Assembly: GCA_005116835.1 (NCBI GenBank)
Contig: SWDM01000023.1
Location: 130,870-194,869 of the forward strand
Source of the DNA: Nitrospira sp.
GTDB lineage: Bacteria > Nitrospirota > Nitrospiria > Nitrospirales > Nitrospiraceae
Direction: 5' to 3'
Length of the DNA: 64,000 nucleotides
Both the position numbers and the translations under genes were made by a program. How positions within the stretch are numbered: the stretch's first letter is position 1; each line of letters begins with the position of its first letter. Positions 44,265 to 60,741 of the stretch are shown here, in pieces. The notes below the pieces were generated by a model. It was given only the letters and a program-made list of their open reading frames with translations, ran no database searches and was not told the DNA's origin.

Positions 44265-45707
44265 ATGGCTGAGATCTGCGTTGTCTATCTCTCGGACGAC
44301 GAACCCATCGTTGAACAGCTGGTTGCCTTGCTTCGAAGAGATTGGGATGTTTGGTGGGCCCGAGATATCGCCCATGGAGATTGGGAAGAGGTTGTTCGAA
44401 AAGAAATTCCTAAGTCGCTAGCTCTTGTCCCTGTGCTGTCCCGGCACACTCGAGGTGAGCGCAAGAATATCCTTAAGGATGAAATGCAGCTTGCCAAATC
44501 CCACAACAAGCCGATACTCCCTTTTGTAATTGGACCCGGAGAGATGCCTTTGGGATTTGGAGGATTGCATTACACGAAGGCTCATGATTGGAATGGCAAG
44601 GATACAGACCGAGGTTACCAACAGCTTAAGGCGAAGATAACTAAGACAATAGGAAACGGGCGGAACGCACTACGAGGGACTGAGCGGGCGAAACAGCTTG
44701 TCGTGAGAGGGAAAATCCTTCAGCTCCCTGCTTTTGTTTTTTCGCTCTCCTCCCATGAAACTCAAGTAACCCCGAAGGAAGGCGCTCCCTTGCTGCACTT
44801 CCTTGAGCCTGGGGCGGCGCTTGTCTCTGCCTATGATGCGTGGAAGTACTACTCGCGCGATCGCCTCTTCAACTCGATCATGACCAAAATTCGTGAGTCT
44901 CAGGATGTCTTATTCCTCGATTCTGGCAACTATGAGGCGTACCGGAAGAACGACCGCTATGCACTCAAGAAAAATCCTAAGGGCTGGCACAAAGATGATT
45001 TTCGAGAGACTGCCTTAAAGCTGAAACCTGACCTGGCGTTCTCTTTCGATACGATCAACCCAAAGGGAAAACAAGACGAAATTGTGTCGCAAGTTGTTGC
45101 GACTTTTCAGGCTGACGACCGGGCAATGTCAGAAAGAGATTTTTCGCTATGCCCAATCATCCATCTTCCTAAGGGAACCCGTGCCCAGAATGCGGCCGGT
45201 ATTGTGGCAGGCGTTGCTCGTGAGCTTGATCCTCTGATGCTTGCTATCCCTGAGCGAGAATTGGGTGATGGTCTGTTGGAGCGGGCCAGAACGGTTCGGG
45301 ATATTCGAAGAGCACTTAATAGGCTCGGAAAATATCACCCTCTCCACCTGCTGGGTACAGGCAATCCTCTGTCCATGGTCGCCTTGGCAGCCGCTGGTGC
45401 CGATTCCTTCGATGGACTTGAATGGTGTCGAACCATTGCTGATTATGAACGGGGCTACCTTTTTCACTTTCAGCAGTTCGAGTTTTTCAGTGAGATTCGT
45501 CTCCATCGAATTCAGGACCCGCGCATTCGCAATCTGGTCGAAAATAAAAATGTTTCGTACAGTCTGAAGGCGTTGGGATTCAACATCGATTTCTTTAAAG
45601 ACTGGACGCGAAGTATGCAGAACATGATTCATGGCGGACAGATTGAGCATCTCCTAACGAGTGTTCCATATATCGGACCGCAGATATTCAAGGAACTCTC
45701 AAAATGA
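44265..45707 (+). CDS. TIR domain fused to a tRNA-guanine-transglycosylase-like domain
   Basis: The 480-residue product has an N-terminal TIR domain (about residues 3-130; ICVVYLSDDEP, DVWWARDIAHG, and Glu73 in KDEMQLA at the position of the NADase glutamate). It is followed by a TGT-type barrel (about 150-470). The TGT landmarks are FLDSGNYE (217-224), FSFDTIN (259-265), HLLGTGNPLSMVALAAAGAD (361-380) and SFDGLEW (381-387), which covers the nucleophile region. The zinc cysteines of tRNA-modifying TGTs are missing, as in DNA-type or Cap10-type relatives. It starts a coupled operon with OGG- and QueC-like genes. A TIR fusion to TGT is unusual. Confidence 0.85.
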   Translation: MAEICVVYLSDDEPIVEQLVALLRRDWDVWWARDIAHGDWEEVVRKEIPKSLALVPVLSRHTRGERKNILKDEMQLAKSHNKPILPFVIGPGEMPLGFGGLHYTKAHDWNGKDTDRGYQQLKAKITKTIGNGRNALRGTERAKQLVVRGKILQLPAFVFSLSSHETQVTPKEGAPLLHFLEPGAALVSAYDAWKYYSRDRLFNSIMTKIRESQDVLFLDSGNYEAYRKNDRYALKKNPKGWHKDDFRETALKLKPDLAFSFDTINPKGKQDEIVSQVVATFQADDRAMSERDFSLCPIIHLPKGTRAQNAAGIVAGVARELDPLMLAIPERELGDGLLERARTVRDIRRALNRLGKYHPLHLLGTGNPLSMVALAAAGADSFDGLEWCRTIADYERGYLFHFQQFEFFSEIRLHRIQDPRIRNLVENKNVSYSLKALGFNIDFFKDWTRSMQNMIHGGQIEHLLTSVPYIGPQIFKELSK

Positions 45708-46417
45708 CTTCTTTCTCGTCTGTATTCACAGCTCGGCGCTTTGATAGCACGGTCCGTACACTTTGTCCGCTCATAGAGAGCGAAGTTTCAAGGCATATGA
45801 CTCGATTCATTCGCGAATACGAACTGAGACGGGAGTTGGTCGGCTGCATCCTCGGTAGTCAAGTCCGCTACGAAATGGCGGTTGAGGCAGTTGAGAATCT
45901 AGAATCTGCGGGACTTCTCGATGATGCATATTGGTGTCAGCGGAATGATAACGAATTTGAAGGCGGTGTCTTTATGGTGCTCGCTGGTCGAAGTAACGCT
46001 TCTCGACACAAAGGTAGCTATCGATTCCCTGGTGTTCGAGCCAAGCAGTTAGCTCAAGTCAGGAGTGCTTTGGCCAGGGCTCCTATTCTGAGCAGACTCG
46101 CGGTCAGCAGTTGTCCCTCGTACCTGCGACAACAGCTCATCGAGGATATCTCCGGAATCGGTCCCAAGCAGGCCAGCATGTTCCTTCGCAATATTGGGAA
46201 AAGCTATGACCTCGCTATCCTAGACACTCACGTCCTACAATTCATGTGCATGCAAGGCCTTTTATCAATAGAGGATGCTCGCATTGGCACGATCAAGGAA
46301 TACGAGAAAGCGGAGCGGGTTGTGATTCAGTACGCAGCAAGTATTGGCTATCCAGTGGGGTATTTGGACTGGGCCATCTGGGCTACCATGAAGGCAGCAC
46401 GGGAGCTTGAGCCATGA
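45704..46417 (+). CDS. HhH-GPD DNA glycosylase/lyase, OGG-like
   Basis: The 237-residue product has a helix-hairpin-helix followed by the catalytic aspartate, IEDISGIGPKQASMFLRNIG and LAILDTHVLQFM. Lys155 and Asp174 are 19 residues apart, the same spacing as Lys249 and Asp268 of human OGG1. VRAKQLAQV earlier in the protein is also OGG-like. This group includes the ancillary OGG protein of type IV CBASS (Cap11). Its start overlaps the TIR-TGT stop by ATGA, and its stop overlaps the QueC start in the same way. Confidence 0.87.
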   Translation: MTSFSSVFTARRFDSTVRTLCPLIESEVSRHMTRFIREYELRRELVGCILGSQVRYEMAVEAVENLESAGLLDDAYWCQRNDNEFEGGVFMVLAGRSNASRHKGSYRFPGVRAKQLAQVRSALARAPILSRLAVSSCPSYLRQQLIEDISGIGPKQASMFLRNIGKSYDLAILDTHVLQFMCMQGLLSIEDARIGTIKEYEKAERVVIQYAASIGYPVGYLDWAIWATMKAARELEP

Positions 46418-47004
46418 GCATTGTGACATTAGTCTCAGGCGGTCTGGATTCTACGGTCATGGCCGTGCTAACAAAGGAGGAAGGATTAACTCAATTCCCG
46501 CTATTCATCGACTACGGGCAACTGGGCCGTGACAAGGAACTTCAAGCTTGCCGGGCAAACTTCAAACGGCATGGCCTGCCTGAGCCAGTGATCGCTCCGC
46601 TGAGCGGTTACGGGAGCCTCCTTTCCTCGGGGCTCACCGATCAGAACAAGCACATTCTGATAGATGCGTTCCTCCCTTGTCGCAACCTTATGTTCCTCAC
46701 CGTGGGTGCGGCCTATGCGTTTCAATGTGGCGCCTCTGCCGTAGGGATAGGGCTACTCGATGAAGCCTTTAGTCTGTTTCCTGACCAGACCAAGGGTTTT
46801 CTCTCTGATGCCGAAGCGCTGCTATCGAGAGCGCTGGGCAAGTCCATCAAGGTGATCACTCCTCTGATCACATTTTCAAAAGCAGAAGTCTTGAAAATTG
46901 CTAAGGCCAAGGGAATAACTGGAACGTATTCATGTCACGCCGGAACGGAGACCCCCTGTGGTAAATGTGTGGCGTGCCGCGAATACATCGGATTGGAGGT
47001 GTAG
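46414..47004 (+). CDS. QueC-like 7-deazaguanine enzyme (Cap9 type)
   Basis: QueC converts 7-carboxy-7-deazaguanine to preQ0 with ATP and ammonia. This 196-residue relative has the PP-loop LVSGGLDSTVMAVL (SGGLDS at 8-13). It also has FLPCRNLMFLTVGAAYA and all four zinc cysteines in SCHAGTETPCGKCVACRE (174, 182, 185, 188). It is somewhat shorter than housekeeping QueC. Its place between OGG-like and poly-Gly TIR genes, with no queD, queE or folE nearby, points to the ancillary Cap9 group of type IV CBASS and away from tRNA queuosine synthesis. Confidence 0.88.
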   Translation: MSIVTLVSGGLDSTVMAVLTKEEGLTQFPLFIDYGQLGRDKELQACRANFKRHGLPEPVIAPLSGYGSLLSSGLTDQNKHILIDAFLPCRNLMFLTVGAAYAFQCGASAVGIGLLDEAFSLFPDQTKGFLSDAEALLSRALGKSIKVITPLITFSKAEVLKIAKAKGITGTYSCHAGTETPCGKCVACREYIGLEV

Positions 47005-47006
47005 CC

Positions 47007-47495
47007 ATGGGAGGTGGCGGAGGTGGCTCAAGCAGCATCGGAAATATTCAGTCGCTGGTGGACAAGGCTAAGCAGGAACTGAGGAAGAGCGAACAGCAGG
47101 GAGAGAAGAGGAATGTCTTTATCAGCTTCGCCTATGAGGACATCAATGAGGTGAATCTACTCCGCGGTCAGGCAAAGAATGAGAACTCCCCCATTGAGTT
47201 CAACGATTGGTCGGTTTCAGAACCGATCGACAGCGAGCGAGCCCCTTATATCAAACAAAAAATAGCGGAGCGAATCCAGCAGTCGTCGCTAACCGTGGTG
47301 TTTCTTTCCAATGCAACGGCGAAGAGTAAATGGGTGGCATGGGAGATTGAGGAAAGTCTCAAAATGGGCAAACAGGTTCTAGGCGTTTACCCCAAAGATA
47401 ACAAGCCAGCTTCTTTTCCAGAGGCCATTAATGCGAATAAGATTAAATGTGTGACATGGCCAGATCTGGCAAGCACCATCGCGAAGCTTAAGTAA
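47007..47495 (+). CDS. ThsB-like TIR protein with N-terminal hexaglycine
   Basis: The 162-residue product begins Met followed by six glycines and three serines. It then has a short helix (NIQSLVDKAKQELRKSEQQ) and a TIR-like DUF1863 domain (about residues 35-160). That domain has RNVFISFAYEDINEVNLL, FNDWSVSEPI and KSKWVAWEIEESL, where Glu113 aligns with the catalytic glutamate of ThsB-type TIR proteins. The ATG at 47007 is 7 bases after GGAGG, which fixes the glycine-rich N-terminus. It is 2 bases after the QueC-like stop. Met before Gly is normally removed, exposing glycine. Confidence 0.88.
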   Translation: MGGGGGGSSSIGNIQSLVDKAKQELRKSEQQGEKRNVFISFAYEDINEVNLLRGQAKNENSPIEFNDWSVSEPIDSERAPYIKQKIAERIQQSSLTVVFLSNATAKSKWVAWEIEESLKMGKQVLGVYPKDNKPASFPEAINANKIKCVTWPDLASTIAKLK

Positions 47496-47506
47496 GTGAG
47501 TTGCTG

Positions 47507-49351
47507 ATGGTATCCCGGTTGAGCACTACGCTGTCGCGAGCCGTCGATCGTGTTTTTGGATACGATTTTTTCCTTTCTTACTCCCACAAAGATGGAAAGA
47601 ATTATCCGAGGCTTCTCAAAACCAGGCTTGAGCAAGTCGGATTCAAGGTGTTTCTCGACCAGACTGAATACGTCCCGGGAGACGATCTACGCCGCGAGAC
47701 AAGACGACAGGTTAAGAAAAGCCAGAAGCTTGTCGTGATCGCCAGGACAGACGCGCTAAAATCTGTCTGGGTGAAACGCGAGGTGGAGATCATCTTGGCC
47801 AGTGGGCGCACTCCGATTCTTATCGATCTCAACAACAGTGTGGAGCGCGCATCACCGGATGCGGAACTGGCGATGCTTGCGCGCGAGCATCATTGGTTGC
47901 GCCTTATGGAGACGAGCACTGATCCCGACGGAGTTCCAACGGACTATGCAGTATCGGAGCTAATCCGTTCGTTCGGAGTAATGCGTCAGGACGTCAAGCG
48001 CCAGCAGATCTTGGGCGTAACAGCGGCTGGATTCGCCCTTATTGCCATCTGGGCAGGGTATCTTGCATGGCTGTCGAATGAACGGCGACAGGAAGCCGAC
48101 ATGAGGCTCGCCACCACGCTCGAGACCGCCACGCGGTTCGTCAACCAGACCGTGCAAATGAGCGACAAATACGGTGTTCCTCGAGAATTTGTCCTCCAAC
48201 TCCTCAAGGAGCCTGAGCAGGTTTTTCTGCAACTTGCGAAATCAGGGACTGACACGCCCGAGGTTCGACAGCGGCGGGCTCAGACCCTGCTTGATTTCTC
48301 CGACAACTACGAGGTGCTTGGCGACTCAGATCAGCGACTGGCACGAGCGCGCGAAGCGAAAGCGATTCTTGCGGAGCTCGTCAGCAAGCATCCAGACAAA
48401 GTAGACTGGCAGCTTCGTCTCGCGACCGCGTCCAGTAAAATCGGGACTGCACTGCTGTTTCGCGGTGACAGGTCTGGTGCCGATGCAGAGTACGAGGAGG
48501 CGCTGCGGCTGCGCAAAATGTTGGCGGAAGCATATCCAGAGGATCGCAAGGTCCAGCGTGACTACTCGGTGGCGCTGAACCGTAAGGGGGAGATACTAAT
48601 TGGGCTTGGCCGCTATGAGGACGCCCGAGGCTATATCCGTCGGGCGCGTGATCTGCGCAGAAGCCTGTCAGGCGTGGATCCGGAAAACCGCGAACTGAAG
48701 CGCGATATTATCGTGTGCCAGATATGGCTCGGTGACAGCTTCAAGGCTGAGCAGAGATTTGCAGATGCTCGTACGGAGTATCTGGTGGCACTCGAAATCG
48801 CAGAGAGACTTACGCGAGAGGACGAGACGAGTAAGAATGCGGCACGCGATTTCACCGTGAGCCTGAACAAGATCGGCGAGACGTATCTTGGTGAGAAAGA
48901 CGCTGCGAGCGCCAAATTTTACTATGAGCGCGCACTTCCAGTCCGTAAACGGCTGGCTACTGACGAAAGCAATCGCGCCGCGCAGCGGGACCTTTTCGTG
49001 AGCTACATTCAGCTCGGCCACATCGCGTTCTCTGGGAAGCTGACCGGCAAGGCACGGAGCTATTTCGGCAACGCACTTGAGCTTGCCGAAAGGCTGTTCC
49101 AGAAAGATCCGAATTATGCACATTGGCAGGCCGATGCAGCCGAGGCTAGAGGTTGGTATGGAATGGTCGCAGAGGCTGGAGGCGAGACGATGATCCGTCA
49201 GGCTATTGCACAGCTCGATGCCATGCGTAGAGAGGGCAGACTCGTTGCGGATCGTGAGGTGCTGATTACACAATTCAAAGGCATCGTGGCAGAACGAACA
49301 GCCGATGCTGGACAAGACAAGCCGCCAGCCTCAATACCGCCGAACCGCTGA
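47507..49351 (+). CDS. Membrane TIR-TPR protein
   Basis: The 614-residue product has an N-terminal TIR domain (about 18-155; YDFFLSYSHKDGKNYPR, Glu92 in SVWVKREVEI). One membrane segment (167-189, ILGVTAAGFALIAIWAGYLAWL) and a long TPR array (about 245-590) follow. The TPRs have repeated patterns such as NRKGEILIGLGRYEDARGYIRRA and NKIGETYLGEKDAASAKFYYERA. The TIR is cytoplasmic if the TPRs lie outside; topology is not certain. It follows the poly-Gly TIR gene by 11 bases and is probably the last gene of that operon. Base composition is richer in G+C than in the four genes before it. Confidence 0.85.
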   Translation: MVSRLSTTLSRAVDRVFGYDFFLSYSHKDGKNYPRLLKTRLEQVGFKVFLDQTEYVPGDDLRRETRRQVKKSQKLVVIARTDALKSVWVKREVEIILASGRTPILIDLNNSVERASPDAELAMLAREHHWLRLMETSTDPDGVPTDYAVSELIRSFGVMRQDVKRQQILGVTAAGFALIAIWAGYLAWLSNERRQEADMRLATTLETATRFVNQTVQMSDKYGVPREFVLQLLKEPEQVFLQLAKSGTDTPEVRQRRAQTLLDFSDNYEVLGDSDQRLARAREAKAILAELVSKHPDKVDWQLRLATASSKIGTALLFRGDRSGADAEYEEALRLRKMLAEAYPEDRKVQRDYSVALNRKGEILIGLGRYEDARGYIRRARDLRRSLSGVDPENRELKRDIIVCQIWLGDSFKAEQRFADARTEYLVALEIAERLTREDETSKNAARDFTVSLNKIGETYLGEKDAASAKFYYERALPVRKRLATDESNRAAQRDLFVSYIQLGHIAFSGKLTGKARSYFGNALELAERLFQKDPNYAHWQADAAEARGWYGMVAEAGGETMIRQAIAQLDAMRREGRLVADREVLITQFKGIVAERTADAGQDKPPASIPPNR

Positions 49352-49438
49352 CTGTCGGTGGAAATCAGGTTGGAAGCGCTGTTTAGTGGTCTTGAAAGCT
49401 GTGGCATCGATACGCTTCAGAAAAACTAGGAAGCTTGC

Positions 49439-49564
49439 ATGATACCCCATGTTTTTGTCGCGATGCCATTCGGCTTGAAGAAAGTCAGACAAGACAACGA
49501 GATTGATTTCAATCGCGTCTATACCGAACTGATCAAACCCGTGCCGGAGTGGCACGAAGGATAG
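49439..49564 (+). pseudogene. Truncated N-terminal fragment of a deoxyribosyltransferase-like effector gene
   Basis: This 41-residue frame starts MIPHVFVAMPFGLKKVR and continues EIDFNRVYTELIKPVPEW. It clearly matches the first 35 residues of the intact protein encoded at 49975 (LCFVLMPFGKK, VDFDSIYELLIKPAV). It then stops, and the rest of the gene is missing. A MITE lies 11 bases downstream, so insertion or associated deletion probably removed the remainder. Confidence 0.75.
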
Positions 49565-49575
49565 CATAGGGTTAG

Positions 49576-49674
49576 GGAAGGTTTGATTAATTCAAAGTTC
49601 CAGGCAGTGACATCGTCGAATTCCCTGTGTTTTGAAGGTCGGCTGAGCGAAATCTTGAATTATTCAGACCTTCC
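49576..49674. mobile_element. 99 bp MITE with terminal inverted repeats and TTAG duplication
   Basis: The left end GGAAGGTTTGATTAATTCAA and the reverse complement of the right end, GGAAGGTCTGAATAATTCAA, match at 17 of 20 positions. Directly flanking 4-base repeats TTAG lie at 49572-49575 and 49675-49678, the expected target-site duplication. There is no coding capacity, so it needs a transposase supplied elsewhere. The parent IS was not identified. Confidence 0.8.
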
Positions 49675-49678
49675 TTAG

Positions 49679-49974
49679 ATTGATATGGTGGCGGTACTGC
49701 GCAGCACTTGCTGAATGCAGTCCACCTTGCCCGGGCGATGATATATGGCATCTGTTGCCCTGATAGATCCATGCAACCATTACATCTACTAATCAGTGCT
49801 GCACCGAATTGACGAGAAATTGTTAGAAGGGTACACTCGCGTCGCGAGAGTCTTTGGATGCCTTAGAACCTGGGACCGAAAAGAAGTTGAGGAGGTAGTT
49901 GCACCGGCTGAGATTTTGCGTGCCCCATCCATTGGAAGACGAGCCTGTTGTTAATCCGCTCAAGTAGCTCGACC
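49679..49974. other. Non-coding stretch after the MITE
   Basis: About 300 bp hold no convincing reading frame, promoter or RNA. A short hairpin, CTCGCGTCGCGAG, is near 49838. Scattered similarity to coding composition suggests decayed gene sequence, but nothing can be named. Confidence 0.5.
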
Positions 49975-51318
49975 ATGCTGCCACTATGCTTCGTGCTCAT
50001 GCCCTTCGGGAAAAAGCCAGCTGGCGATGGCCGGTTGGTGGATTTTGATTCTATTTATGAGTTGCTCATCAAGCCTGCCGTGGTGGCCGCGGGCCTTGAG
50101 CCGTTGCGTGCCGACGAGGAGATGACCGGTGGCGTGATCCACAAGCCCATGTTCGAACGGTTGATTCTCTGTGAATACGCGGTTGCAGACCTGACGACAG
50201 CCAACGCCAATGTTTTCTACGAGCTGGGATTGCGGCATGCCGTCCGACCAGCTAGCACGGTGCTGCTGTTTGCTCAGGGAATCGGCCAATTGCCATTTGA
50301 CGTTGCGCCATTACGCGCCATCCCGTACCAACTCGGCTCTGACGGCAAACCAGCGATGAACGATACGGACCGTGACAGGCTCACTACTAGGCTTCATGAA
50401 GCCCGCGAGGTCAAAACAGACAGTCCCGTTTTCCAACTCGTGGAGGGTTTTCCCGACATCCAGCGTCTCAAGACTGATGTGTTTCGCGAGCGTGTCGAGT
50501 ATTCCAGCACACTTCGACAGAAACTGGCGCAAGCTCGCAAGCAAGGCGTTGAGGCGGTTCGGGCTCTAGAGCGAGAGATAGGGCCCATACATGATGTTGA
50601 GGCAGGCGTGGTGGTCGATCTGTTCCTTTCCTACCGTGCCGTGAAGGGTTGGGGCGACATGATTGCGCTGGGCCAGGAGATGTCGGCGCCGTTGGCGGCG
50701 ACGGTTCTCGTGCAGGAACAGTTGGGGTTGGCTTTGAACCGGGCCAATCGTGGCGAAGAAGCGGAACGAATACTGCTGGCTCTGATTGAGAGTCGCGGGC
50801 CGAGCAGCGAGACGTTCGGCATCCTTGGCCGGGTGTACAAGGATCGGTGGGAAGCAGCTCTGAAGGCCGGCGAGAAGGTCCTCGCACGCGGGCTGCTTGA
50901 AAAAGCTATCGGGGCCTACCTCAAGGGGTTCGAAGCCGACTGGCGCGACGCCTATCCCGGAATCAATGCCGTGACGCTCATGGAACTGAAAGAGCCGCCC
51001 GATTCCAGGCGCGACCAACTCATCCCGGTCGTCTCATACGCCGTGGAACGTCGCATGGCTTCCGGCAAGCCAGATTATTGGGACTATGCCACCCTACTGG
51101 AGCTGGCGGTGCTCGCCAAGGATCAGAACAAGGCTGAGTTGGTGCTTGCCAACGCACTTGCTGCAGTGCGCGAATCCTGGGAGCCGGAGACCACCGCTCG
51201 GAATCTCAGGCTGATTCGTGAGACTCGCGAGCGTCGCAAGGAGCCGTTCCAGTGGCTCAAAGAAATTGAAGAGGAGTTGGAGTGTTACCCCAAAACGGTA
51301 ATGCGTGATGGCGAATAA
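49975..51318 (+). CDS. Deoxyribosyltransferase-like plus TRAFs-binding (DUF4071) protein
   Basis: The 447-residue product starts with LCFVLMPFGKK. ERLILCEYAVADLTTANANVFYELGLRHAV follows, the pattern of the nucleoside 2-deoxyribosyltransferase/TIR-like fold (about residues 1-140). The remainder is helical and TPR-like (GRVYKDRWEAALKAGEKVLARGLLEKAIGAYLKGFEADWRDAYPGINAVTLM), as in the TRAFs-binding domain family DUF4071. Such proteins occur in bacterial conflict gene clusters. The start at 49975 is preferred over a TTG 27 bases earlier. The activity is not known; the N-terminal fold suggests nucleotide or NAD processing. Confidence 0.8.
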   Translation: MLPLCFVLMPFGKKPAGDGRLVDFDSIYELLIKPAVVAAGLEPLRADEEMTGGVIHKPMFERLILCEYAVADLTTANANVFYELGLRHAVRPASTVLLFAQGIGQLPFDVAPLRAIPYQLGSDGKPAMNDTDRDRLTTRLHEAREVKTDSPVFQLVEGFPDIQRLKTDVFRERVEYSSTLRQKLAQARKQGVEAVRALEREIGPIHDVEAGVVVDLFLSYRAVKGWGDMIALGQEMSAPLAATVLVQEQLGLALNRANRGEEAERILLALIESRGPSSETFGILGRVYKDRWEAALKAGEKVLARGLLEKAIGAYLKGFEADWRDAYPGINAVTLMELKEPPDSRRDQLIPVVSYAVERRMASGKPDYWDYATLLELAVLAKDQNKAELVLANALAAVRESWEPETTARNLRLIRETRERRKEPFQWLKEIEEELECYPKTVMRDGE

Positions 51319-51396
51319 TTCGCATGCATTATTTTGGGATATATGCGTGAGAAGGAGAGAGCTTGTTGTCGCTATGGATAGGAGGTTCAGGTCACG

Positions 51397-52092
51397 ATGA
51401 AGGTTTTCCTAGGATTTTCGTTCCGTGACGAAGACAGGGAGATTGTGGGGTTGGTGGATCAGCTGATAGCCAGTCATCTTGTTGAATTGAAAACAGGAGA
51501 ACGTTTGGGAGGGGATCAATTGACTCCCGCTGTCCAACGGCGCATCGAGGACAGTGATGCACTCGTAGGTGTCCTTACCAGGCGAGACAAAAGGCAAGAT
51601 GGGAAGTGGACAACGCATCAGTGGGTGCTCGATGAGATCGGGTGGGCTAGAGCAAAGAACCGGAAGGTAATCGCTTTAGTGGAGCAGGGCGTCGACATAG
51701 GAGGAATGTTCCTATCCCATGAACACATTTCCTTGGACAAAGGCAATCCCATTCAAGGCTTGATGGCACTTTCTGACACCATCGGTCTATGGAGACGGGA
51801 GCTAGGTCGTACTGTGAAAGTCCAAATCTTGCCGGTTGCGATTGCGCAAAGAGTGGGGGATGGCGGTAATGGTGTACGGTGCCGCCACCGCCTGTGGTTA
51901 AGGGGGGCGTCTTCATCGTGGTTGGATTTGACTCCTGTGCCTGAAGCTGGAGGCACGTTTGTTTTCGTGAATGGCGTACAAGATGAGCACCTTATCCAGC
52001 TGCAAGTTCAACAGGATAGCAAGATGTGGCAGTCCGTGGCCACCTCACAATGGATTCAGGTGACGATGAAGTCCGGAGGTGTAGGCCTATGA
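51397..52092 (+). CDS. TIR-domain protein with C-terminal beta-rich domain
   Basis: The 231-residue product has a TIR-like domain (about residues 1-145). It starts MKVFLGFSFRDEDREIVGLV, and Glu80 in THQWVLDEIGWA stands in the catalytic glutamate position. The C-terminal 85 residues (RVGDGGNGVRCRHRLWLRG through WIQVTMKSGG) are strand-rich and of unknown family. The stop overlaps the pYEATS-TIR start by ATGA, so the two are translated together. It starts the second immune gene run. Confidence 0.78.
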   Translation: MKVFLGFSFRDEDREIVGLVDQLIASHLVELKTGERLGGDQLTPAVQRRIEDSDALVGVLTRRDKRQDGKWTTHQWVLDEIGWARAKNRKVIALVEQGVDIGGMFLSHEHISLDKGNPIQGLMALSDTIGLWRRELGRTVKVQILPVAIAQRVGDGGNGVRCRHRLWLRGASSSWLDLTPVPEAGGTFVFVNGVQDEHLIQLQVQQDSKMWQSVATSQWIQVTMKSGGVGL

Positions 52093-52814
52093 CAATACAG
52101 ATTAAACAACAAGCGGTCCCTAAAGGTAAGGATTGGTGGGAATGGTCGGTGTGGCTCGAGGGGGCCAAAAAAGAACTCGAGGGCATTGATCATGTTGTAT
52201 ACACACTCCATCCAACCTTTCCCAATCCTGTTGTGCCGGTTACCAACCGGGCGACAGGATTTCGATTGGATTCCTCTGGGTGGGGAGAATTCACTATTTA
52301 CCTTCAAATCAAGAATAAAGATGGCTCGACGAGCAAGCGACGGCACTACCTGAAGCTTATTGATTCAGGTATCAATATGGCCAGATCGAATCAAAAGAGC
52401 GGAAAGCTCTCTTCGGCGAAGGAACCGTCACGTCGCACGGTTTTCGTTTCCGGCGGCACAAGAGATTTAGATGCCGTTCACGCAGTTCGCGAGGCGTTAT
52501 CGGGACAGGACGTCGAGGTCGTGGGACCGCAGGATGTCAAGGCTGGACAGCAATGGCAAGGAACCGTAAGCGACATGATTGCACGAGCTGACTCTGCTGT
52601 TTTCGTGATCTCTGGCCGACCGAATCTTTGGATGAACGAGGAAATTAAAGCTGCCATCAAAGTGGGTGTGCGGCATATTCTTCCCCTCGTAATAGGCGCG
52701 AACGTGGAGTTGCCTGATATTTTGCGAGACATCAATGCTGTCCGCGTTGAGAATTCGTCGGATGTGGCAAACATTACAGAGACGATCCTTAAACAATCGC
52801 TGGGGAGGAAATGA
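52089..52814 (+). CDS. pYEATS-TIR protein
   Basis: The 241-residue product has an N-terminal prokaryotic YEATS domain (about 4-92; DWWEWSVWLEG, IDHVVYTLHPTFPNP, GWGEFTIYLQIKNKDG). A linker and a TIR domain (about 116-235) follow, starting RRTVFVSGGTRDLDAVHAV and with Glu184 or Glu185 in WMNEEIKAAI. YEATS folds in eukaryotes read acyl-lysine; the ligand of pYEATS domains is not established. The start at 52089 overlaps the upstream stop. This is probably a sensor-effector pair in one chain. Confidence 0.85.
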   Translation: MTIQIKQQAVPKGKDWWEWSVWLEGAKKELEGIDHVVYTLHPTFPNPVVPVTNRATGFRLDSSGWGEFTIYLQIKNKDGSTSKRRHYLKLIDSGINMARSNQKSGKLSSAKEPSRRTVFVSGGTRDLDAVHAVREALSGQDVEVVGPQDVKAGQQWQGTVSDMIARADSAVFVISGRPNLWMNEEIKAAIKVGVRHILPLVIGANVELPDILRDINAVRVENSSDVANITETILKQSLGRK

Positions 52815-52857
52815 TGCTTCGTCACTATTGCTAGGGGCTAAGCATGCATGGAGGAAA

Positions 52858-53766
52858 ATGATGGCTATCGCATCGAGATCGGCTCTCAGAAATGGAAGCG
52901 TGTGTTTGGGACTGTTTGGTATGTTCTTGGTGATGGGCTGTGGGCTCACGATTCAGCAAAAGGGGGCAGTGAATCAATTCGCCACTGCTACGCGTGACCT
53001 ATCCGTCTCAGCCCAGGCTGAGTTTCAGCGGAGCCGTCAAGATGTCGTCGAGATGAATCGCTTTCGGCTCGAGCTTGGTGATCCGATGGCCGACGTGAAC
53101 AAACTGGATTCGTTGCTAACCCTCGATCGAACCCGAGATCGTATCATGGCTCTTCAAGCTCTCGAAGACTATGGGGGATTGTTGAACAAACTCGTTGGTA
53201 TTGTTCCTGAGGGCGAACTTCTTGAAGCCAGCAACACTTTTGTCGGAAGCCTTAAGCAAGTCAAGGGGGTGCAGTTGACCGACCAGGAAGCGGGAGGGAT
53301 CGGAAAGGCCGTGGCCGCAGTCGGTGGGCTCTATGTTGAATACAAAAGAGCTGCGGCGGTTCGCCATGTGGTGGAAACGACACATGCACCGGTTCTTGCC
53401 GTGATCGATCTCGTGAAGAAAGACTTCGATCCGAACTCGGATTTCTGGAGTGCAGGTTACCGGAAAACGGCAGTAGACTTAAGTGGTCATGCGGAATCCC
53501 TTGATCTCCTATATCCTCCAAAGGATCTCCTGTCTAAGCAGAGCACCCAGCGGGCCAAAACCCTTGCTACCGAAAACATGAACAGATTTAGCGCTATCTC
53601 CGTACAGATCATGACTCTTGTCAGCACACTTGCTGAGGCACAAAAAAATCTTCGTCTTGTGCTGAATCCATCCGAACTCAATGTTCAAAGTATCGACCAT
53701 CTTGCAACACAAGTTCGAGATTTCAAAACCATCTACGGCCTTCTACGAAACGAAGCGCCACGCTGA
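52858..53766 (+). CDS. Lipoprotein of unknown function in immune gene run
   Basis: The 302-residue product has a lipoprotein signal (SVCLGLFGMFLVMGCGLT). A long helical body follows, with NQFATATRDLSVSAQAEFQRSRQDVVEMNRF and a C-terminal segment rich in charged helices. I recognise no family. GGAGG precedes tandem ATG codons at 52858 and 52861, and the frame further upstream is not used. It lies between the pYEATS-TIR and small helical genes on the same strand. An envelope-anchored sensor is one possible reading. Confidence 0.7.
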   Translation: MMAIASRSALRNGSVCLGLFGMFLVMGCGLTIQQKGAVNQFATATRDLSVSAQAEFQRSRQDVVEMNRFRLELGDPMADVNKLDSLLTLDRTRDRIMALQALEDYGGLLNKLVGIVPEGELLEASNTFVGSLKQVKGVQLTDQEAGGIGKAVAAVGGLYVEYKRAAAVRHVVETTHAPVLAVIDLVKKDFDPNSDFWSAGYRKTAVDLSGHAESLDLLYPPKDLLSKQSTQRAKTLATENMNRFSAISVQIMTLVSTLAEAQKNLRLVLNPSELNVQSIDHLATQVRDFKTIYGLLRNEAPR

Positions 53767-53780
53767 GCAGGAGGATGACT

Positions 53781-54164
53781 ATGCCCACAAGCCGCAAGAC
53801 ACGGAAGCGCCAAACTGCCACTCGTAAACGGAGTCTGAGCCGAGGACTTGGTGAACAGCGAGGGCTCGGACAACTTTTGCTCGACACTGTCGAAAATATC
53901 ATTGAGTTGATGAGGCACACTCAAGATCCAGACCGTCTCAAGGAACTGAACAGCAAAAGAATCGCGCTCTCGAAGGAAGCTGGCCGACTCATTGATGCCA
54001 CCCTTGATGCATCGAGTGCCGAATATCGGTCTGCTACCTTCGCACTGGAGGAAGCCGCAGGTACGATTCGTGGAGCCATTAAGGGACTTGAGGCAGTCAA
54101 GGATGCCATCCTGAAAGCGGCTAAGGCGCTGGAACTGATTGTCAAGGTGGTATCAATCGCGTAA
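53781..54164 (+). CDS. Small helical hypothetical protein
   Basis: The 127-residue product has a very basic N-terminus (SRKTRKRQTATRKRSLSRG). Amphipathic helices follow (LGQLLLDTVENIIELMRHTQ, AAGTIRGAIKGLEAVKDAILKAAKALELIVKVV); the last is hydrophobic enough to interact with a membrane. There is no family match that I know. The start at 53781 is 6 bases after AGGAGG. It lies 14 bp after the lipoprotein gene and 30 bp before the metacaspase gene, so it may be a partner or substrate of that protease. Confidence 0.65.
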   Translation: MPTSRKTRKRQTATRKRSLSRGLGEQRGLGQLLLDTVENIIELMRHTQDPDRLKELNSKRIALSKEAGRLIDATLDASSAEYRSATFALEEAAGTIRGAIKGLEAVKDAILKAAKALELIVKVVSIA

Positions 54165-54194
54165 CGCTCACTCTCTCGGTGAAAGGATCGTTAT

Positions 54195-55031
54195 ATGGCA
54201 AAGCGAGCTGTGCTCATTGGTATCAATCGGTATCAGATCCCCGGATCTGATCTGAGGGGTTGTGTCAATGACGTCAAGAATCTCCAGCAAGCGCTCACCA
54301 CGTACTATGGATTTTCAAACCAGGACATTGCGTCCCTCACCGACCTGAAGGCGACGAAGAAGGCCATGCAGTCGGCGATTAAGAAGCTGGTCACCGGTGG
54401 AAAGAAGGGCGATGTCCTGCTTCTACACTATTCAGGCCATGGGGCGAACGTGCCCGACGACAATGGTGATGAAGCGGATCACCGAGACGAGATATTGTGC
54501 CCAACCGACCTCGATTGGAATGACCCATTGCGTGACGACTGGCTCCGTAAGACATTCAATAAACTTCGATCGGGGGTGAGCCTCACGGTGATCATGGACT
54601 GCTGCCACTCAGGAACCAACACTCGCGTGTTCACTCCACCGGATGCTCCCATAAAAGAACGGTTCCTCCCCTGTCCGTTAGATTTGATGGCCAGTGAGTC
54701 CGGCAGGAAACTGCGTGGAACGCTTCGCGGTCAACTGGGAAAAGCTCCGCGAGGGCGCAAAAGAAAGAGCGATATCGTCCACGCCGATATTCAAGAGCTG
54801 CTGATCACCGGCTGCCGTGATACTCAGACCTCCGCCGATGCGCAAATCGGTGGCACCTTTAATGGTGCCTTGACCTATTACCTGGTCGAGTCGATTAGAG
54901 AGACCAAAGGCAATCTAACCTACCGAGAGCTGCATCAACGAACCGTCGCGAAACTCAAGAGCAATGAGTACGATCAAGTTCCGCAACTGGAAGGGCGACG
55001 TACGTCCTTTGATCGTCCATTTCTCAGTTAG
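54195..55031 (+). CDS. Metacaspase-like peptidase, family C14
   Basis: The 278-residue product is a caspase-fold protease. It starts AKRAVLIGINRYQIPGSDLRGCVNDV. The catalytic histidine is in LLHYSGHGANV (His82) and the catalytic cysteine in VIMDCCHSGTNT (Cys137). The C-terminal portion has ITGCRDTQTSADAQIGGTFNGALTYYL, typical of type I metacaspases. These enzymes usually cleave after Arg or Lys. It lies in a row of TIR and CHAT genes, which suggests a role in triggered proteolysis. Confidence 0.92.
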   Translation: MAKRAVLIGINRYQIPGSDLRGCVNDVKNLQQALTTYYGFSNQDIASLTDLKATKKAMQSAIKKLVTGGKKGDVLLLHYSGHGANVPDDNGDEADHRDEILCPTDLDWNDPLRDDWLRKTFNKLRSGVSLTVIMDCCHSGTNTRVFTPPDAPIKERFLPCPLDLMASESGRKLRGTLRGQLGKAPRGRKRKSDIVHADIQELLITGCRDTQTSADAQIGGTFNGALTYYLVESIRETKGNLTYRELHQRTVAKLKSNEYDQVPQLEGRRTSFDRPFLS

Positions 55032-55101
55032 CAGAGCTGTGCGATGACGCTATGACATTCCTGATGTTCGTCACCCATCCTTACTGCCTAAAGGAGTTCC
55101 C

Positions 55102-58100
55102 ATGAGTATTCAGCTGCGTATTGCCGGTCGGCCGACGTCGCCAGCGGAAGCAAGTGCAGCCGTTCGAGGAGATTCTCTCTCCGGACGAAGAGAGCAGCCC
55201 GATACGCGTCTGCTGGATGCTGTGGACGTGCTGGGCGCGTTCGAGATGTACCCGAAAGATCGTGCGGCATCGGAGAAGCCAACGATGCTTGAAGCCGAAG
55301 ACGATGACTTGATTGAATTCGTGCTGGAAGATGGCATCTCTGTGTGGACGTCGGTGGCTGCTCATCGAGAACGGCAACGCCGATTGAAGCCCGGTGTGCA
55401 GACGGCGAAGGAGCTGGATATCGACTTGGTTATCTCCACGCCCGCATCGAGCAGGGGACTGGTGAGCGATATCGTGACCGGCGCGGTACGAATTCTCCGG
55501 CTGAAACGAGACGAGGTGTGGGAACAAGCAAAAGATCCCACGCAGTGGCCGGCCTGGATAAAGCCGTACGGGGTGGCGACATTCGAGAAATTGGGGGCGT
55601 GGCTGACGGCCAAGTTGATCATCTGGTTTATCGAGAGAAAGATTCGTCCTGAAGAAGGGCTCTATCGGTGGGTCAAGCCATCGGCTGAAGACGGCCCTTC
55701 GCTCATTGCTCCAGGGAGTATTCCCTCCGATGCACATGTCCTTCTCTTTATTCATGGAACGGCCTCCAACACCATGGGGAGTTTCGGCGCGTTGCATACC
55801 GACGAGGCCTCGTCTGAATGGGACACACTCACGCGAACATTCAAAGATCATATTTACGCGTTTGACCATCGCACCTTGAGCCAGAGTCCAATCGACAATG
55901 CCGTGATGCTGGCGAACGCGCTTCCGGACGGCGCGCAAATTTCTCTGGTGTCACATTCACGGGGAGGGCAGGTGGCCGACCTGTTATGCCTACGAGAGTT
56001 GTCCTCCGAGCAGGTCAATCGGTTTCATCGAGAAGGCGACAAATCTCGCCAAGCAGATGAACATGACCGTCGACAGCTGGCTGAGTTGGCAAAGATCCTC
56101 CGTAAAAAGAAGTTTCGGATCGTGCGGCTCATTCGGGTAGCCTGTCCGGCTCAAGGGACATTGCTGGCCTCGGAGAATTTGGATCGTTTTCTCTCTGTGT
56201 TGACCAGCCTCATCGGGCTGATTCCTGTCGTGGGGCAGTCCCTGATTTACCAGGTTGCAAAACGCATCACGCTCGAAGTGGCTAAAAGCCGGTGGGATCC
56301 TTCGGTGATTCCAGGGGCCGAATCGATGGTTCCGCAATCGCCGCTCGTCGCATTACTCAATGCTCCGGACGTGCAGGGAGGGGGAGCCCTTGGCGTGATC
56401 GCTGGGGACATTGAGGACGTGAGCTGGTTCAAACGGTTGGGCACATTCATCACCGACAGGTTTATATATGACAATCAAGACAACGATTTGGTCGTCAATA
56501 CCAATTCAATGTTTCAGGGAGTGCCTCGAAGCGCAGTCTCTCGATACATTTTCGATCAGGGATCCGATGTCTCCCATTTTCGATACTTCCGAAATTCGCG
56601 CACGCGTCATCTGTTGGTGCAGTCGATTACGAACGCAGGGGAGCAATGGCCTGCGGAATTTCGCTTGCTCGATGAAGCCAAGGTTGCTCCGGTTCCCATG
56701 CTGCGTTCCATTCAAACGAGATCGGGGGCGAGCCAGCCTGTTGTCTTCGTACTCCCTGGAATCATGGGATCGGAACTACAAGCCAACGGCGACGATGTCT
56801 GGCTGAGCTATTTGAGCCTCTTCCTCGGCCATATCGACAAGATTGCGGTGGATGCACCTAATGTGGAGGTCAATGGCCTCGTCAGCACGTACTATCGTGA
56901 CCTCTGCAATTATCTGGGCGATACACATGAAGTCATTCCCTTCGGCTACGATTGGCGTCATTCAATTACACGCGCCGCTTCTAAGCTGGCGGACGAAGTG
57001 AAGAAGGTGGTGGCTCGGACAGGTGAACCAATTCGGTTCATCGCCCACAGCATGGGTGGTCTCGTGGTACGGCGGCTCATCAAAGACTTTCCAGATTTGT
57101 GGGAGACACTGTGCAAACGGGAGGGCGCTCGATTCGTCATGCTGGGGACGCCCAACCGCGGGTCCTATGATATGGTGGAGTCACTGGCTGGCATGGCGAA
57201 AACTGTCAAACAGCTGGCCTTGCTCGATGTTACCCATTCGATGAGTGAAATCGTCGCGATTGTGTCTGCCTACCAAGGGGCGCTGGAGCTCTTGCCTCAA
57301 GATGAAGGGGAATATTTTACCTCTCAAAAATGGACGGAACTTCATCCGCTGACGGAATCCAAAGTTCAGATCAAGCCCCAAATACTGCAAGATGCCAAGG
57401 CCGCGCTTGCCGATCTTCCTGAACGGATTCCCCATGCGGAGTGCGTGCGTTACGTGGCGGGGTGGGCGCCCAAGACCGTGTGTGGAGTGAAGGTCGAAAA
57501 CCAACGCCTCTCCTTTCAGGCAACGACGGCGGGCGATGGCCGTGTGACCTATAAAGCGGGTCTGCTTCCGGACATTCCTGTGTGGTATGTCGATGCCGAG
57601 CATGGCGACTTGGCGGACCACAAGCCGGCGTTTCCAGCCTATCGCGACTTGCTTGAGCGAGGCGTGACCAATCAGCTTTCTACCACACCCTTGAGCGCCG
57701 ACCGAGGCGGCGAATCGATCTTCGACTACGAGCATGAACCGGTGTTGTACCCGACAGCATCGGATTTTGAAGCAGGCCTGCTCGGGAAGCGGCGAAAAGC
57801 ACTGAAAGTACGCACTTCCGAGAAGTTGCAGGTGTCGGTGCTGCACGGCGATCTGATTCACACCAACCATCCTATTCTGCTCGGTCATTACCAGGGCGAC
57901 ACGATTTTCGGGTCTGAACAGCTCGTGGACCGTTTTTTGGTCGGAAATTCTCTATCCCAACGCTACAATTTGGGCCGTTATCCAGGGCGAACGGAGACGG
58001 TTGCCGTTGTGCTGACCCAGCCAAACGACGTTCAAACAGCCTTTCGTATCCGACACGGGGCGATCGTGATTGGCCTCGGCAAATGGGGTGAATTGACACC

Positions 58101-60741
58101 CTCGGTGCTCACCCAAGCCGTGCATCATGGCGTGATGGAGTATTGTGTGCAATTTGCCCAGTGTTGTGGTTCGACGGAAGCATCGACGATCTCGACCGGT
58201 CTCACCATCAACAGTTTACTAATCGGATCCAATACGTCGGCGAACATTGCCGTCGAGGATTCGGTGAATGCGATTGTACGAGGAGTAATTCTTGCCAATC
58301 GCGCCCTGATGGAACAGAACCATGCGTTTCCGAGAATTACACATGTTCAGTTCATTGAGCTGTATCTGGACGTGGCGATTGATGCGGCAAAAACGGTGCA
58401 TCGCCTGGCCAAGCGCATTGAGCGTGACCTTCAGGCTGAGATCGACGTGGCGACGTGGTTGAAGAAGGGGATTGGGGGGCGGACGAGGTATGTCCCATCG
58501 AGTACGCGGGGCTATTGGCGTCGCTGGACGGTCTCTGCGGTTCATGATGCCCCGGCTCCTGCCCCCTGCATCCTGTCTCCGGTGTTGAAAGATCGGCTCC
58601 GCATAACCCTTCAAGACGAGAAGGTCAATGATCCCAGAGTTCTGAATGCTCTCCTAGATTTGGCTTTCAAAGACGATGGCCCCGTGCGTCGCCATCCGCG
58701 CAAGCTTCGTTTTCTTGCTCTGTCGGATCGCGCCCGCGCTGAAGTGATTGTGGAGGAAACTCAACCGGAATTGATCGCTCAGCTCATTCAGCGTTCGATC
58801 ACCTCCACAGCGTTCAGACGGGATATCGCCAAAACGCTCTTTGAACTGTTGATCCCATTGGATCTTAAGGATAGCCTCCTCAACCAAGACCGTGTGGTAT
58901 TGGTCCTTGACGACGTGACAGCAAACTATCCTTGGGAACTAATGATCGACGTTGACCAGCCGCTGTGCATTCGGATCGGTATGGTTCGGCAGCTGGAAAC
59001 AGCCGACTACGAAGAGCGTATCCGAGATACGACCGCAACCAACGTCTATGTGGTTGGAAACCCCCTTACTCCTTCCAATTATCCGACGTTGCCCGGTGCT
59101 CAGAAAGAAGCAGAACTTGTCGCGTCATTACTGAAGCCTCACTATGCCGTCAACCATTCAAGCCAACGGCTTGGCGCCCTCGAGGTGCTCAACCAGCTCT
59201 TTGCCCAGCCCTATCGGATCATCCACATCGCCGGGCATGGCTCTTACAACGAAGCGGAGACCGAATTGTCTGGGGCGAAGGCTGGTGTGGTGCTCGACAA
59301 CGGACTCTTTCTCACCGCGGCGGAAATCGCCAAGCTGGACCCGATTCCGGAATTGGTGTTCTTGAATTGTTGCTATCTCGGGCAAATTGGCGGCACGGCT
59401 TACAATAAGATGGCCGCCAGCATCTCGCGCGAATTGATTAGAAAAGGCGTGCGTGCAGTCGTGGCAGCCGGATGGCCGGTTCGGGACGATGCGGCGCTCT
59501 GTTTCGCGCAAGTATTCTACAAGAAGCTGCTCGACTCTCAGCCGTTCGGTCATGCGCTAAAGGAGGCGAGGCAACAGACCTGGGCCCTCTTCCCGGAGTC
59601 CAACACCTGGGGGGCCTACCAAGCCTATGGGGATCCGGATTTCCGATTGAGGCAGAATCATGACGTGCAAGTAGACAACGAGGACGTGACCGTTGCGGCG
59701 GAGGAGGTGCTCATTGCCTTGGATGATCTCGAACATCAGAGCGGTGAACCGGATGTGGCAACACTCCAGAATAAACTCGACGACCTAAAAGGGAGATGCG
59801 CAGTCGATTGGCTGAAACAGGGAAATGTTCAAGAGCAGTTAGGGAAAGTCTATGGCGAGCATGGTCTCTTTCAGGAGGCGGTCGCGCACTATAAGAAGGC
59901 CGCAGAGAGTGAAGATATCGAGAATCCGGCGACGTGTCGGGGGATCGAACAGTGGATCAATCTTGAGGCGCGGCTTGGCAAGAAGATCAACGACAAGGCG
60001 AGAATTAAAAGAGCTATCAAACGGGGCCTGGATTTACTCAAGATTGCAGAAACATCCGAGCGTTTGAGTATCATGGGCAGCGCGTACAAGAGACTGGCAG
60101 AGCTTGATGAAGAGCCGAGTGAGATCACGACGAATCTGAAAGAGGCTGCTGCGTACTATCAAAAAGCAGCGGAGAGACAAGAGCAAGAGCCATTGGCAGA
60201 TCCGTATCCGATTATGAATTGGCTGACGATAGAGGCACTTCTTGAAACATCCAAGGTGCCGTACGAATCGTGGTTGTCGAAAGCCGAGATTCTGGCACGG
60301 CAGCGTTTCCAGGCGACGCGCAAGGCGTGGGATTTGTTTGCCGTAGCGGATATCGAAGTTCTCCGAGCCATTCAGAATAAAAAAGAGTCGATAAAGAGCG
60401 CTGGGCTTGTGGGTAAGTATCGAAAGGTCTTTACCGAGTCGGCTGCGACCCAACGAGAACAAGATTCAGCTCGCAGTCAATTAGAGTTCATAATCACGAT
60501 GCGGCAGAAATTGTCTCGCTCTCGTCGCCAAAAGAGGGCGGTCGATTCGATCGGTGACGCACTGACCGATATTCGACATCATCTTGAGAAGTCGAAGCCC
60601 CAGGCGAAACCCTCGCCGATCCAACCAAAAGTAACCAGCAAGCCCTCCCCCACAAGCAAGGCACCGGCGAAACAGCCTTTGCAAAAGAGTTCCGTGCAAG
60701 AGAAAAAAACGCGTCGTCCGAAGCGTCACAGGAAGGGATAG
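55102..60741 (+). CDS. Giant double alpha/beta-hydrolase, CHAT protease and TPR protein
   Basis: The 1879-residue product combines several domains. The first hydrolase (about 210-520) has HVLLFIHGTASN and the nucleophile elbow SHSRGG (Ser286). The second, LCAT/lipase-like (about 545-760), has PGIMGSEL (552-559) and AHSMGG (Ser650). A middle region of unknown family (about 800-1250) follows. The CHAT protease domain (about 1270-1530) has HIAGHG (His1379) and FLNCCYLG (Cys1423/Cys1424). TPR-like helices (about 1560-1780) and a basic, Pro/Lys-rich tail end the protein. Coupling a caspase-like protease to lipases in one chain suggests self-activation or membrane damage. It follows the metacaspase by 70 bp. 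Confidence 0.88.
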   Translation: MSIQLRIAGRPTSPAEASAAVRGDSLSGRREQPDTRLLDAVDVLGAFEMYPKDRAASEKPTMLEAEDDDLIEFVLEDGISVWTSVAAHRERQRRLKPGVQTAKELDIDLVISTPASSRGLVSDIVTGAVRILRLKRDEVWEQAKDPTQWPAWIKPYGVATFEKLGAWLTAKLIIWFIERKIRPEEGLYRWVKPSAEDGPSLIAPGSIPSDAHVLLFIHGTASNTMGSFGALHTDEASSEWDTLTRTFKDHIYAFDHRTLSQSPIDNAVMLANALPDGAQISLVSHSRGGQVADLLCLRELSSEQVNRFHREGDKSRQADEHDRRQLAELAKILRKKKFRIVRLIRVACPAQGTLLASENLDRFLSVLTSLIGLIPVVGQSLIYQVAKRITLEVAKSRWDPSVIPGAESMVPQSPLVALLNAPDVQGGGALGVIAGDIEDVSWFKRLGTFITDRFIYDNQDNDLVVNTNSMFQGVPRSAVSRYIFDQGSDVSHFRYFRNSRTRHLLVQSITNAGEQWPAEFRLLDEAKVAPVPMLRSIQTRSGASQPVVFVLPGIMGSELQANGDDVWLSYLSLFLGHIDKIAVDAPNVEVNGLVSTYYRDLCNYLGDTHEVIPFGYDWRHSITRAASKLADEVKKVVARTGEPIRFIAHSMGGLVVRRLIKDFPDLWETLCKREGARFVMLGTPNRGSYDMVESLAGMAKTVKQLALLDVTHSMSEIVAIVSAYQGALELLPQDEGEYFTSQKWTELHPLTESKVQIKPQILQDAKAALADLPERIPHAECVRYVAGWAPKTVCGVKVENQRLSFQATTAGDGRVTYKAGLLPDIPVWYVDAEHGDLADHKPAFPAYRDLLERGVTNQLSTTPLSADRGGESIFDYEHEPVLYPTASDFEAGLLGKRRKALKVRTSEKLQVSVLHGDLIHTNHPILLGHYQGDTIFGSEQLVDRFLVGNSLSQRYNLGRYPGRTETVAVVLTQPNDVQTAFRIRHGAIVIGLGKWGELTPSVLTQAVHHGVMEYCVQFAQCCGSTEASTISTGLTINSLLIGSNTSANIAVEDSVNAIVRGVILANRALMEQNHAFPRITHVQFIELYLDVAIDAAKTVHRLAKRIERDLQAEIDVATWLKKGIGGRTRYVPSSTRGYWRRWTVSAVHDAPAPAPCILSPVLKDRLRITLQDEKVNDPRVLNALLDLAFKDDGPVRRHPRKLRFLALSDRARAEVIVEETQPELIAQLIQRSITSTAFRRDIAKTLFELLIPLDLKDSLLNQDRVVLVLDDVTANYPWELMIDVDQPLCIRIGMVRQLETADYEERIRDTTATNVYVVGNPLTPSNYPTLPGAQKEAELVASLLKPHYAVNHSSQRLGALEVLNQLFAQPYRIIHIAGHGSYNEAETELSGAKAGVVLDNGLFLTAAEIAKLDPIPELVFLNCCYLGQIGGTAYNKMAASISRELIRKGVRAVVAAGWPVRDDAALCFAQVFYKKLLDSQPFGHALKEARQQTWALFPESNTWGAYQAYGDPDFRLRQNHDVQVDNEDVTVAAEEVLIALDDLEHQSGEPDVATLQNKLDDLKGRCAVDWLKQGNVQEQLGKVYGEHGLFQEAVAHYKKAAESEDIENPATCRGIEQWINLEARLGKKINDKARIKRAIKRGLDLLKIAETSERLSIMGSAYKRLAELDEEPSEITTNLKEAAAYYQKAAERQEQEPLADPYPIMNWLTIEALLETSKVPYESWLSKAEILARQRFQATRKAWDLFAVADIEVLRAIQNKKESIKSAGLVGKYRKVFTESAATQREQDSARSQLEFIITMRQKLSRSRRQKRAVDSIGDALTDIRHHLEKSKPQAKPSPIQPKVTSKPSPTSKAPAKQPLQKSSVQEKKTRRPKRHRKG

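Follow-up and report, generated by a model that had tools for sequence, protein, structure and literature searches.

Type IV CBASS offers the closest described precedent for the modification of a protein by a QueC-like enzyme. In this system, the QueC-like Cap9 acts on a CD-NTase that begins with MGGS: it couples 7-carboxy-7-deazaguanine (CDG) to Gly2, and a G2D substitution stops both the modification and defence (PMC13279940). The tails of NDG substrates have been described as disordered, and QatB of the qatABCD system, with an MGTS N-terminus and an essential Gly tail, behaves like a CD-NTase (PMC13279940). Cap10 belongs to the TGT family and is reported to be remodelled for binding the modified N-terminus of the CD-NTase (PMC11996544). 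The original prediction, that a TIR protein encoded next to QueC has replaced the CD-NTase as the tagged substrate, was based on statements about Cap9 and Cap10 that were correct in substance (PMC13279940; PMC11996544). Protein deazaguanylation was demonstrated only recently, with the CD-NTase as the one substrate class, and a 2026 paper on qatABCD describes what QueC proteins do in other defence systems as still unknown (PMC13279940).

The window (the whole stretch of 64,000 nucleotides analyzed) carries a four-gene cassette on the + strand in the order TIR-TGT, OGG-type glycosylase, QueC, and TIR, with the TIR gene at 47007–47495 as the last member. The genes are tightly packed: an ATGA overlap links each of the first three to the next, and 2 bases separate the end of queC from the TIR start. 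The features are as follows.

44265–45707, + strand: TIR-TGT fusion, an N-terminal TIR and a Cap10-like TGT (Pfam TIR_2 and a weak TGT match; PADLOC TGT, 98 bits).
45704–46417, + strand: OGG-type HhH N-glycosylase/DNA lyase (PF22175, 84 bits), with an ATGA overlap at both ends.
46414–47004, + strand: QueC-like ligase, the Cap9 analogue (PF06508, 123 bits; PADLOC QueC match).
46995–46999, + strand: Shine-Dalgarno GGAGG, 7 bases 5' of the ATG, from the sequence.
47007–47495, + strand: ThsB-like TIR protein, the predicted tag acceptor (PF08937 ThsB_TIR, 95 bits, residues 38–133; PADLOC ThsB, 60 bits).
47007–47060, + strand: disordered N-terminal tail, residues 1–18, MGGGGGGSSSIGNIQSLV (AF2 pLDDT <50), with Gly2 as the predicted attachment site.

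According to Pfam analysis, neither a CD-NTase, which in type IV CBASS synthesises the cyclic oligonucleotide signal, nor another nucleotidyltransferase was present among the window genes scanned, and no ThsA (SIR2-SLOG or Macro) was present among the window neighbours scanned. The TIR-TPR gene at 47501–49351 was rejected as a fifth member of the cassette, as its downstream position is not kept in relatives. This gene lies in a dense island of conflict genes downstream of the cassette (window 47501–60741), which also includes a MAP3K_TRAF_bd/TPR-S gene (49948–51318), a weak TIR (51397–52092), a pYEATS-TIR (52026–52814), and large ORFs at 54195–55031 and 55102–60741 that are caspase-like and CHAT-like in appearance, as judged by eye.

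The translation of the TIR gene opens with MGGGGGGSSSIGNIQSLVDKAKQELRKSEQQGEKRNVFISFAYED. In the start context, ggattGGAGGtgtagccATGggaggtggcggaggtggctcaagcagc, the ATG at 47007 is preceded by GGAGG at a spacing of 7 bases. From this ATG, the frame reads M-G6-S3-IGNIQSLVDKAK, continues with the TIR domain, and ends at 47495. The described N-terminus of Met, six Gly, and three Ser on a TIR protein directly after QueC, with a GGAGG spacing of 7, was thus confirmed in the sequence. An alternative in-frame ATG at 46965 (176 aa), inside queC, was rejected because relatives begin at the MGG codon. The catalytic-type motif S-x-W-V-x-W-E113 is kept, with the glutamate present in 99% of the cassette alignment. 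The AF2 model of the protein was of moderate confidence (pLDDT 71, falling below 50 at residues 1–18), and its best Foldseek match was the Bacillus cereus TIR 8fz9, followed by ThsB structures.

To determine the distribution of the cassette, genome contigs were scanned once with an alignment of the TGT, which yielded 80 loci, and the four-protein profiles were run over the reading frames of those loci. In 77/80 loci, the TGT was followed by QueC and then TIR, a figure that describes TGT-bearing loci and not QueC-TIR pairs lacking a TGT, since the search was seeded with the TGT. Two of the three exceptions were ended by a contig edge, and the third (L063) has a broken OGG and neither QueC nor TIR. 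L073 and L091 lack OGG. In L025, the TIR is split across frames. By record title, the hosts span more than 10 phyla, including Nitrospirota, Pseudomonadota, Bacillota, Gemmatimonadota, Acidobacteriota, Planctomycetota, sulfate-reducer groups, Latescibacterota, Methylomirabilota, Bacteroidota/Chlorobi groups, and one Micrarchaeota metagenome bin. The last of these is a 6.6 kb contig titled Candidatus Micrarchaeota (L017), which stems from transfer to an archaeon or else from faulty binning. Two further copies were found among 395 searched genomes of the phylum of the window. Plasmid copies occur in Rhizobium, Agrobacterium, and Neorhizobium, and several of these plasmids are conjugative. A search of a viral collection returned one cassette and fragments; the complete cassette (L107/L108, IMGVR_UViG_2565956771_000001) is located on an 82.7 kb contig and may travel on a prophage or similar element.

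To compare the N-termini, TIR starts were picked by a rule that weighs the Shine-Dalgarno sequence, the ATG, and how far the start lies from the queC stop, with glycine ignored. An MGG start was found in 77 of the 79 distinct cassette TIRs, with Gly2 in 77/79 and Gly3 in 78/79, and is not a product of chance. Clustering at 70% identity gave 29 groups, 27 of them with MGG. In one exception (L067), an ATG 6 bases (two codons) downstream also yields MGG; the other (L055) starts with MAGSGGG and is the only cassette TIR without Gly2. Either alanine could be tolerated as an acceptor in L055 or this cassette could be decaying. Position 4 is already mixed (G in 45, S in 28, N in 4, and also D and K), and later positions drift. 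All four glycine codons are in use at Gly2 and Gly3 across the cassettes, which indicates that the protein is conserved rather than a G-rich DNA signal and led to the rejection of a DNA or ribosome-binding cause of the G-rich stretch. At the sequence level, the conserved feature is Met-Gly-Gly followed by a short flexible tail, and the six glycines of the window are a local elaboration. Hexaglycine was rejected as the key feature, as the fixed part is only G2-G3. The expectation that the Gly tract would be kept in homologues of the same operon thus held for the first two glycines and failed for the six-Gly run, which is not general.

Among the TIRs compared, the glycine start was also specific to the position after queC. 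These loci encode 27 further ThsB-like TIRs that do not follow queC, and MGG is the start of none of them; most begin at the TIR core, although some of these starts are uncertain. Likewise, an MGG start was not found on the TIRs of two plasmids (L095 and L096) or of a viral contig (L110). These results bear out the suggestion that the Gly start is restricted to TIRs encoded after QueC. As a background, 8/841 long ORFs from these loci had an MGG start; type IV CBASS CD-NTases account for two of them.

A tail of this kind is also present on type IV CBASS CD-NTases, which are known deazaguanylation substrates: MGGSGGGFFSNSDI; GGSFGSGFDPRDI. The CD-NTases of two type IV CBASS loci that were found (L094 and L103) start with MGGSGGGFFSNSDITKELREAEAQ and MGGSGGGSYIPDRW, and the N-terminus of the crystallised CdnD is GGSFGSGFDPRDISRQVRDAEKK; examples of cassette TIR tails are MGGSYGGGLSNRDI (L060) and MGGGSGGGLFSSDI (L071). 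A tail profile trained on TIR tails only was run on 1,696 background N-termini and three CD-NTases. Three untrained cassette TIRs ranked first, followed by the L094 CD-NTase (E value, 0.003) and CdnD (E value, 0.004). The next unrelated N-terminus had an E value of 0.08, and the third CD-NTase (L103) was weakly similar (E value, 2.2). The tail is thus common to two unrelated enzymes, both of which have Cap9- and Cap10-like partners. A wider Cap10 scan in two proteobacterial classes added only one new type IV CBASS locus.

Across 82 aligned cassette QueC rows, SGG-x-DS, Y34-G-Q36, E42, R90-N91, D124, F129, P150, and K156 are kept, as are the zinc cysteines 174/182/185/188, and position 122 is aromatic (F/Y) among the sequences seen. 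The window QueC has SGGLDS, YGQ-x5-E, RN, FPD(Q), K156, and four zinc Cys, so the ATP, nucleobase, and zinc residues are intact. Y115 and D117 of Cap9, which stack on and read the deazaguanine and are replaced by threonines in QatC (PMC13279940), correspond to F122 and D124 of the cassette QueC. All Cap9 motifs named in PMC13329287 are present except for one cysteine. This cysteine of YPDC, shared by two Cap9s and a housekeeping QueC in the alignment, is Gln125 in 100% of the cassette QueCs, and the product could differ because of this invariant exchange. PDB sequence matches were 2pg3, 3bl5, and Cap9 9nto. In a QueC tree with long branches, the cassette QueCs clustered together with support 89/96. 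They were separate from three Cap9s (99/97), within which they were not nested, and from three canonical QueCs (97/96). QatC models matched the cassette QueC at only 14–16 bits, and the latter is 196 aa compared with about 400 aa for QatC. Besides the cassette, the genome of the window encodes a separate housekeeping QueC and two proteins of the PTPS/QueD type, and it has a QueE-like match that falls short of the family cut-off, which indicates that CDG is probably available.

The only significant PDB sequence match of the TGT part was Cap10 9ntn (E value, 9.8e-11), whose crystal includes NDG-modified CdnD. The AF2 model of the TIR-TGT had a pLDDT of 91; its fold resembles TGTs and Cap10 alike, and among the Foldseek matches listed, the highest target-normalised TM (0.69) was to Cap10 9ntn. 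D219, D262, and D383, which by motif we take to be the acid/base, base-reading, and nucleophile aspartates of the TGT family, are kept in the cassettes and in two CBASS Cap10s. The CxCxxC zinc site of tRNA-acting TGTs is absent from the cassette TGT sequence. E73 of the fused TIR is conserved in 45/46 sequences, and the OGG catalytic residues K155 and D174 are present in 100 and 99% of cassettes, respectively.

In 45 of 81 loci, the TGT is a TIR fusion; in the other 36, a few of which are cut or broken, it is a separate protein. The idea of TIR-TGT as the partner of the tag is thus supported in regard to the Cap10-like TGT, but not in regard to the TIR fusion as a general element. A SLATT gene accompanies the TGT in 33/36 TGT-only loci, mostly directly upstream, and SLATT domains have been predicted to act as effectors that form pores in response to nucleotides (PMC7159879). 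In the TIR-TGT loci, a PfkB-like gene and a TPR-S gene are each present in 36/45. As judged from gene content, this layout matches that of a changeable effector with a Cap10-like reader, QueC, and a constant, putatively tagged signalling enzyme. The PfkB-family kinase-like protein (MHIxGGLYREL...) is encoded directly upstream of TIR-TGT in most proteobacterial cassettes (L008–L011 and L023–L054) and not in the window.

Compared with the known systems, the cassette is similar to type IV CBASS in having a QueC-like ligase, a Cap10-like TGT, and a signalling enzyme whose disordered MGG tail follows the same pattern, and a SLATT-type effector is located beside one CBASS example (L094). In contrast, the cassette has a ThsB-like TIR instead of a CD-NTase, its gene order is TGT-OGG-QueC-TIR rather than the QueC-TGT-CD-NTase of L094 and L103, its QueC belongs to another clade with FPDQ in place of YPDC, and its TGT is often fused to a second TIR. 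The qatABCD system also combines a QueC-family protein with a partner bearing an N-terminal Gly tail (MGTS in QatB). However, QatA, QatB, and QatD were not seen with the cassette, and the cassette QueC lacks the QatC extensions and retains the aromatic/Asp base readers in place of the threonines of QatC. The TIR protein shares with Thoeris ThsB a single PF08937 TIR domain with a catalytic-type W-x-x-x-E motif, but it has an MGG tail, constant QueC and TGT partners, and no ThsA was seen; the recurrent neighbours of the cassette elsewhere are SLATT, PfkB, and TPR-S. QueC and TGT of queuosine and archaeosine synthesis have the same folds and most of the same active-site residues, whereas the cassette QueC forms a separate clade and the setting is a defence island, with a TGT devoid of the zinc cysteines and a host that retains its own QueC.

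Overall, we consider it likely that the cassette is a counterpart of type IV CBASS built around a TIR protein, with QueC tagging Gly2 of this protein and the TGT binding the tag. The shared tail and Cap10 as the sole significant PDB sequence relative of the TGT support the proposal that the TIR stands in the place of the CD-NTase. The sequences show the cassette and its conservation, Gly2-Gly3, the intact catalytic residues, and the tail in common with CD-NTases; conjugation and the nature of the attached group are inferred, as are docking, signalling, and a role against phage. Methionine aminopeptidase would expose Gly2 of the ThsB-like TIR, and the cassette QueC, with ATP, would couple CDG from the host queuosine pathway to this residue as an NDG tag. 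The tagged flexible tail may then dock into the base pocket of the Cap10-like TGT, the putative reader, which either carries a second TIR or has a gene for a SLATT membrane protein next to its own. The outcome would be a signalling complex that stays poised until a phage infects; the ThsB-like TIR would then produce an NAD-derived signal or be released, and the TIR or SLATT effector would damage the cell.

The tag could also be a group other than NDG, either another deazapurine or a non-deazaguanine, as is maybe the case for QatC. The invariant Cys-to-Gln exchange beside the base-reading Asp, the separate clade of the cassette QueC, and the uncertain chemistry of the QatC reaction on its Gly2 tail (PMC13279940) favor such a tag, but it is rather unlikely given that the F/Y122 and Asp124 base readers are kept, as opposed to two threonines in QatC, and that the TGT partner retains its base-pocket aspartates. 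Alternatively, the Gly tail may be an unmodified docking peptide to which the cassette proteins bind, or just a linker, with QueC making a free small molecule (e.g., preQ0) that the TGT uses on nucleic acid. Consistent with this, QueC retains the catalytic residues of the canonical nitrile synthase, the TGT its acid/base and nucleophile aspartates, and OGG its lyase lysine. However, a linker would not require near-invariant G2-G3 in a tail that otherwise drifts, and the same tail is present on proven NDG substrates. A free product is also difficult to reconcile with the second, housekeeping QueC in the genome and with a TGT that has no CxCxxC zinc site and matches Cap10 best by sequence. This alternative is therefore regarded as quite improbable.

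With the TGT retaining its catalytic aspartates and OGG its lyase lysine, the TGT might also swap guanine in tRNA or phage DNA for a TIR-linked deazaguanine, so that the TIR would be joined covalently to nucleic acid and then released by OGG; we give this very little credence. Least probable, to the point of being nearly negligible, is a cassette of the Thoeris type, in which phage activates the ThsB-like TIR as usual and QueC, TGT, and OGG are bystanders. The TIR is indeed nearest to ThsB by Pfam, PADLOC, and fold. On the other hand, neither a SIR2-SLOG nor a Macro ThsA was present among the window neighbours tested, QueC and TIR follow the TGT in nearly all loci across many phyla, and TIRs without QueC are without the tail.

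If the TIR protein is deazaguanylated as proposed, TIR enzymes would constitute a second, unrelated substrate class for this modification. One tag and one reader would then join Thoeris-type and CBASS-type immunity, the N-terminal tail would be a portable module, and the generality of deazaguanylation would become a question of simple mass measurement. No published description of the cassette was found in the open literature searched, in which the main deazaguanylation paper is represented by its abstract, and a prior mention is possible. The words TIR and Thoeris are absent from the full texts of the qatABCD paper (PMC13279940) and the QueC family survey, and an open-literature search for TIR with QueC, SLATT, and TGT returned nothing relevant. 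As a separate observation, a QueC operon in which an MGG partner was not seen is located at 3661–6285 of L115 (Neotabrizicola shimadae plasmid NZ_CP069372.1); it encodes a PfkB/nucleoside deoxyribosyltransferase-like protein, QueC, and an HhH glycosylase-like protein and possibly represents another QueC-linked system.
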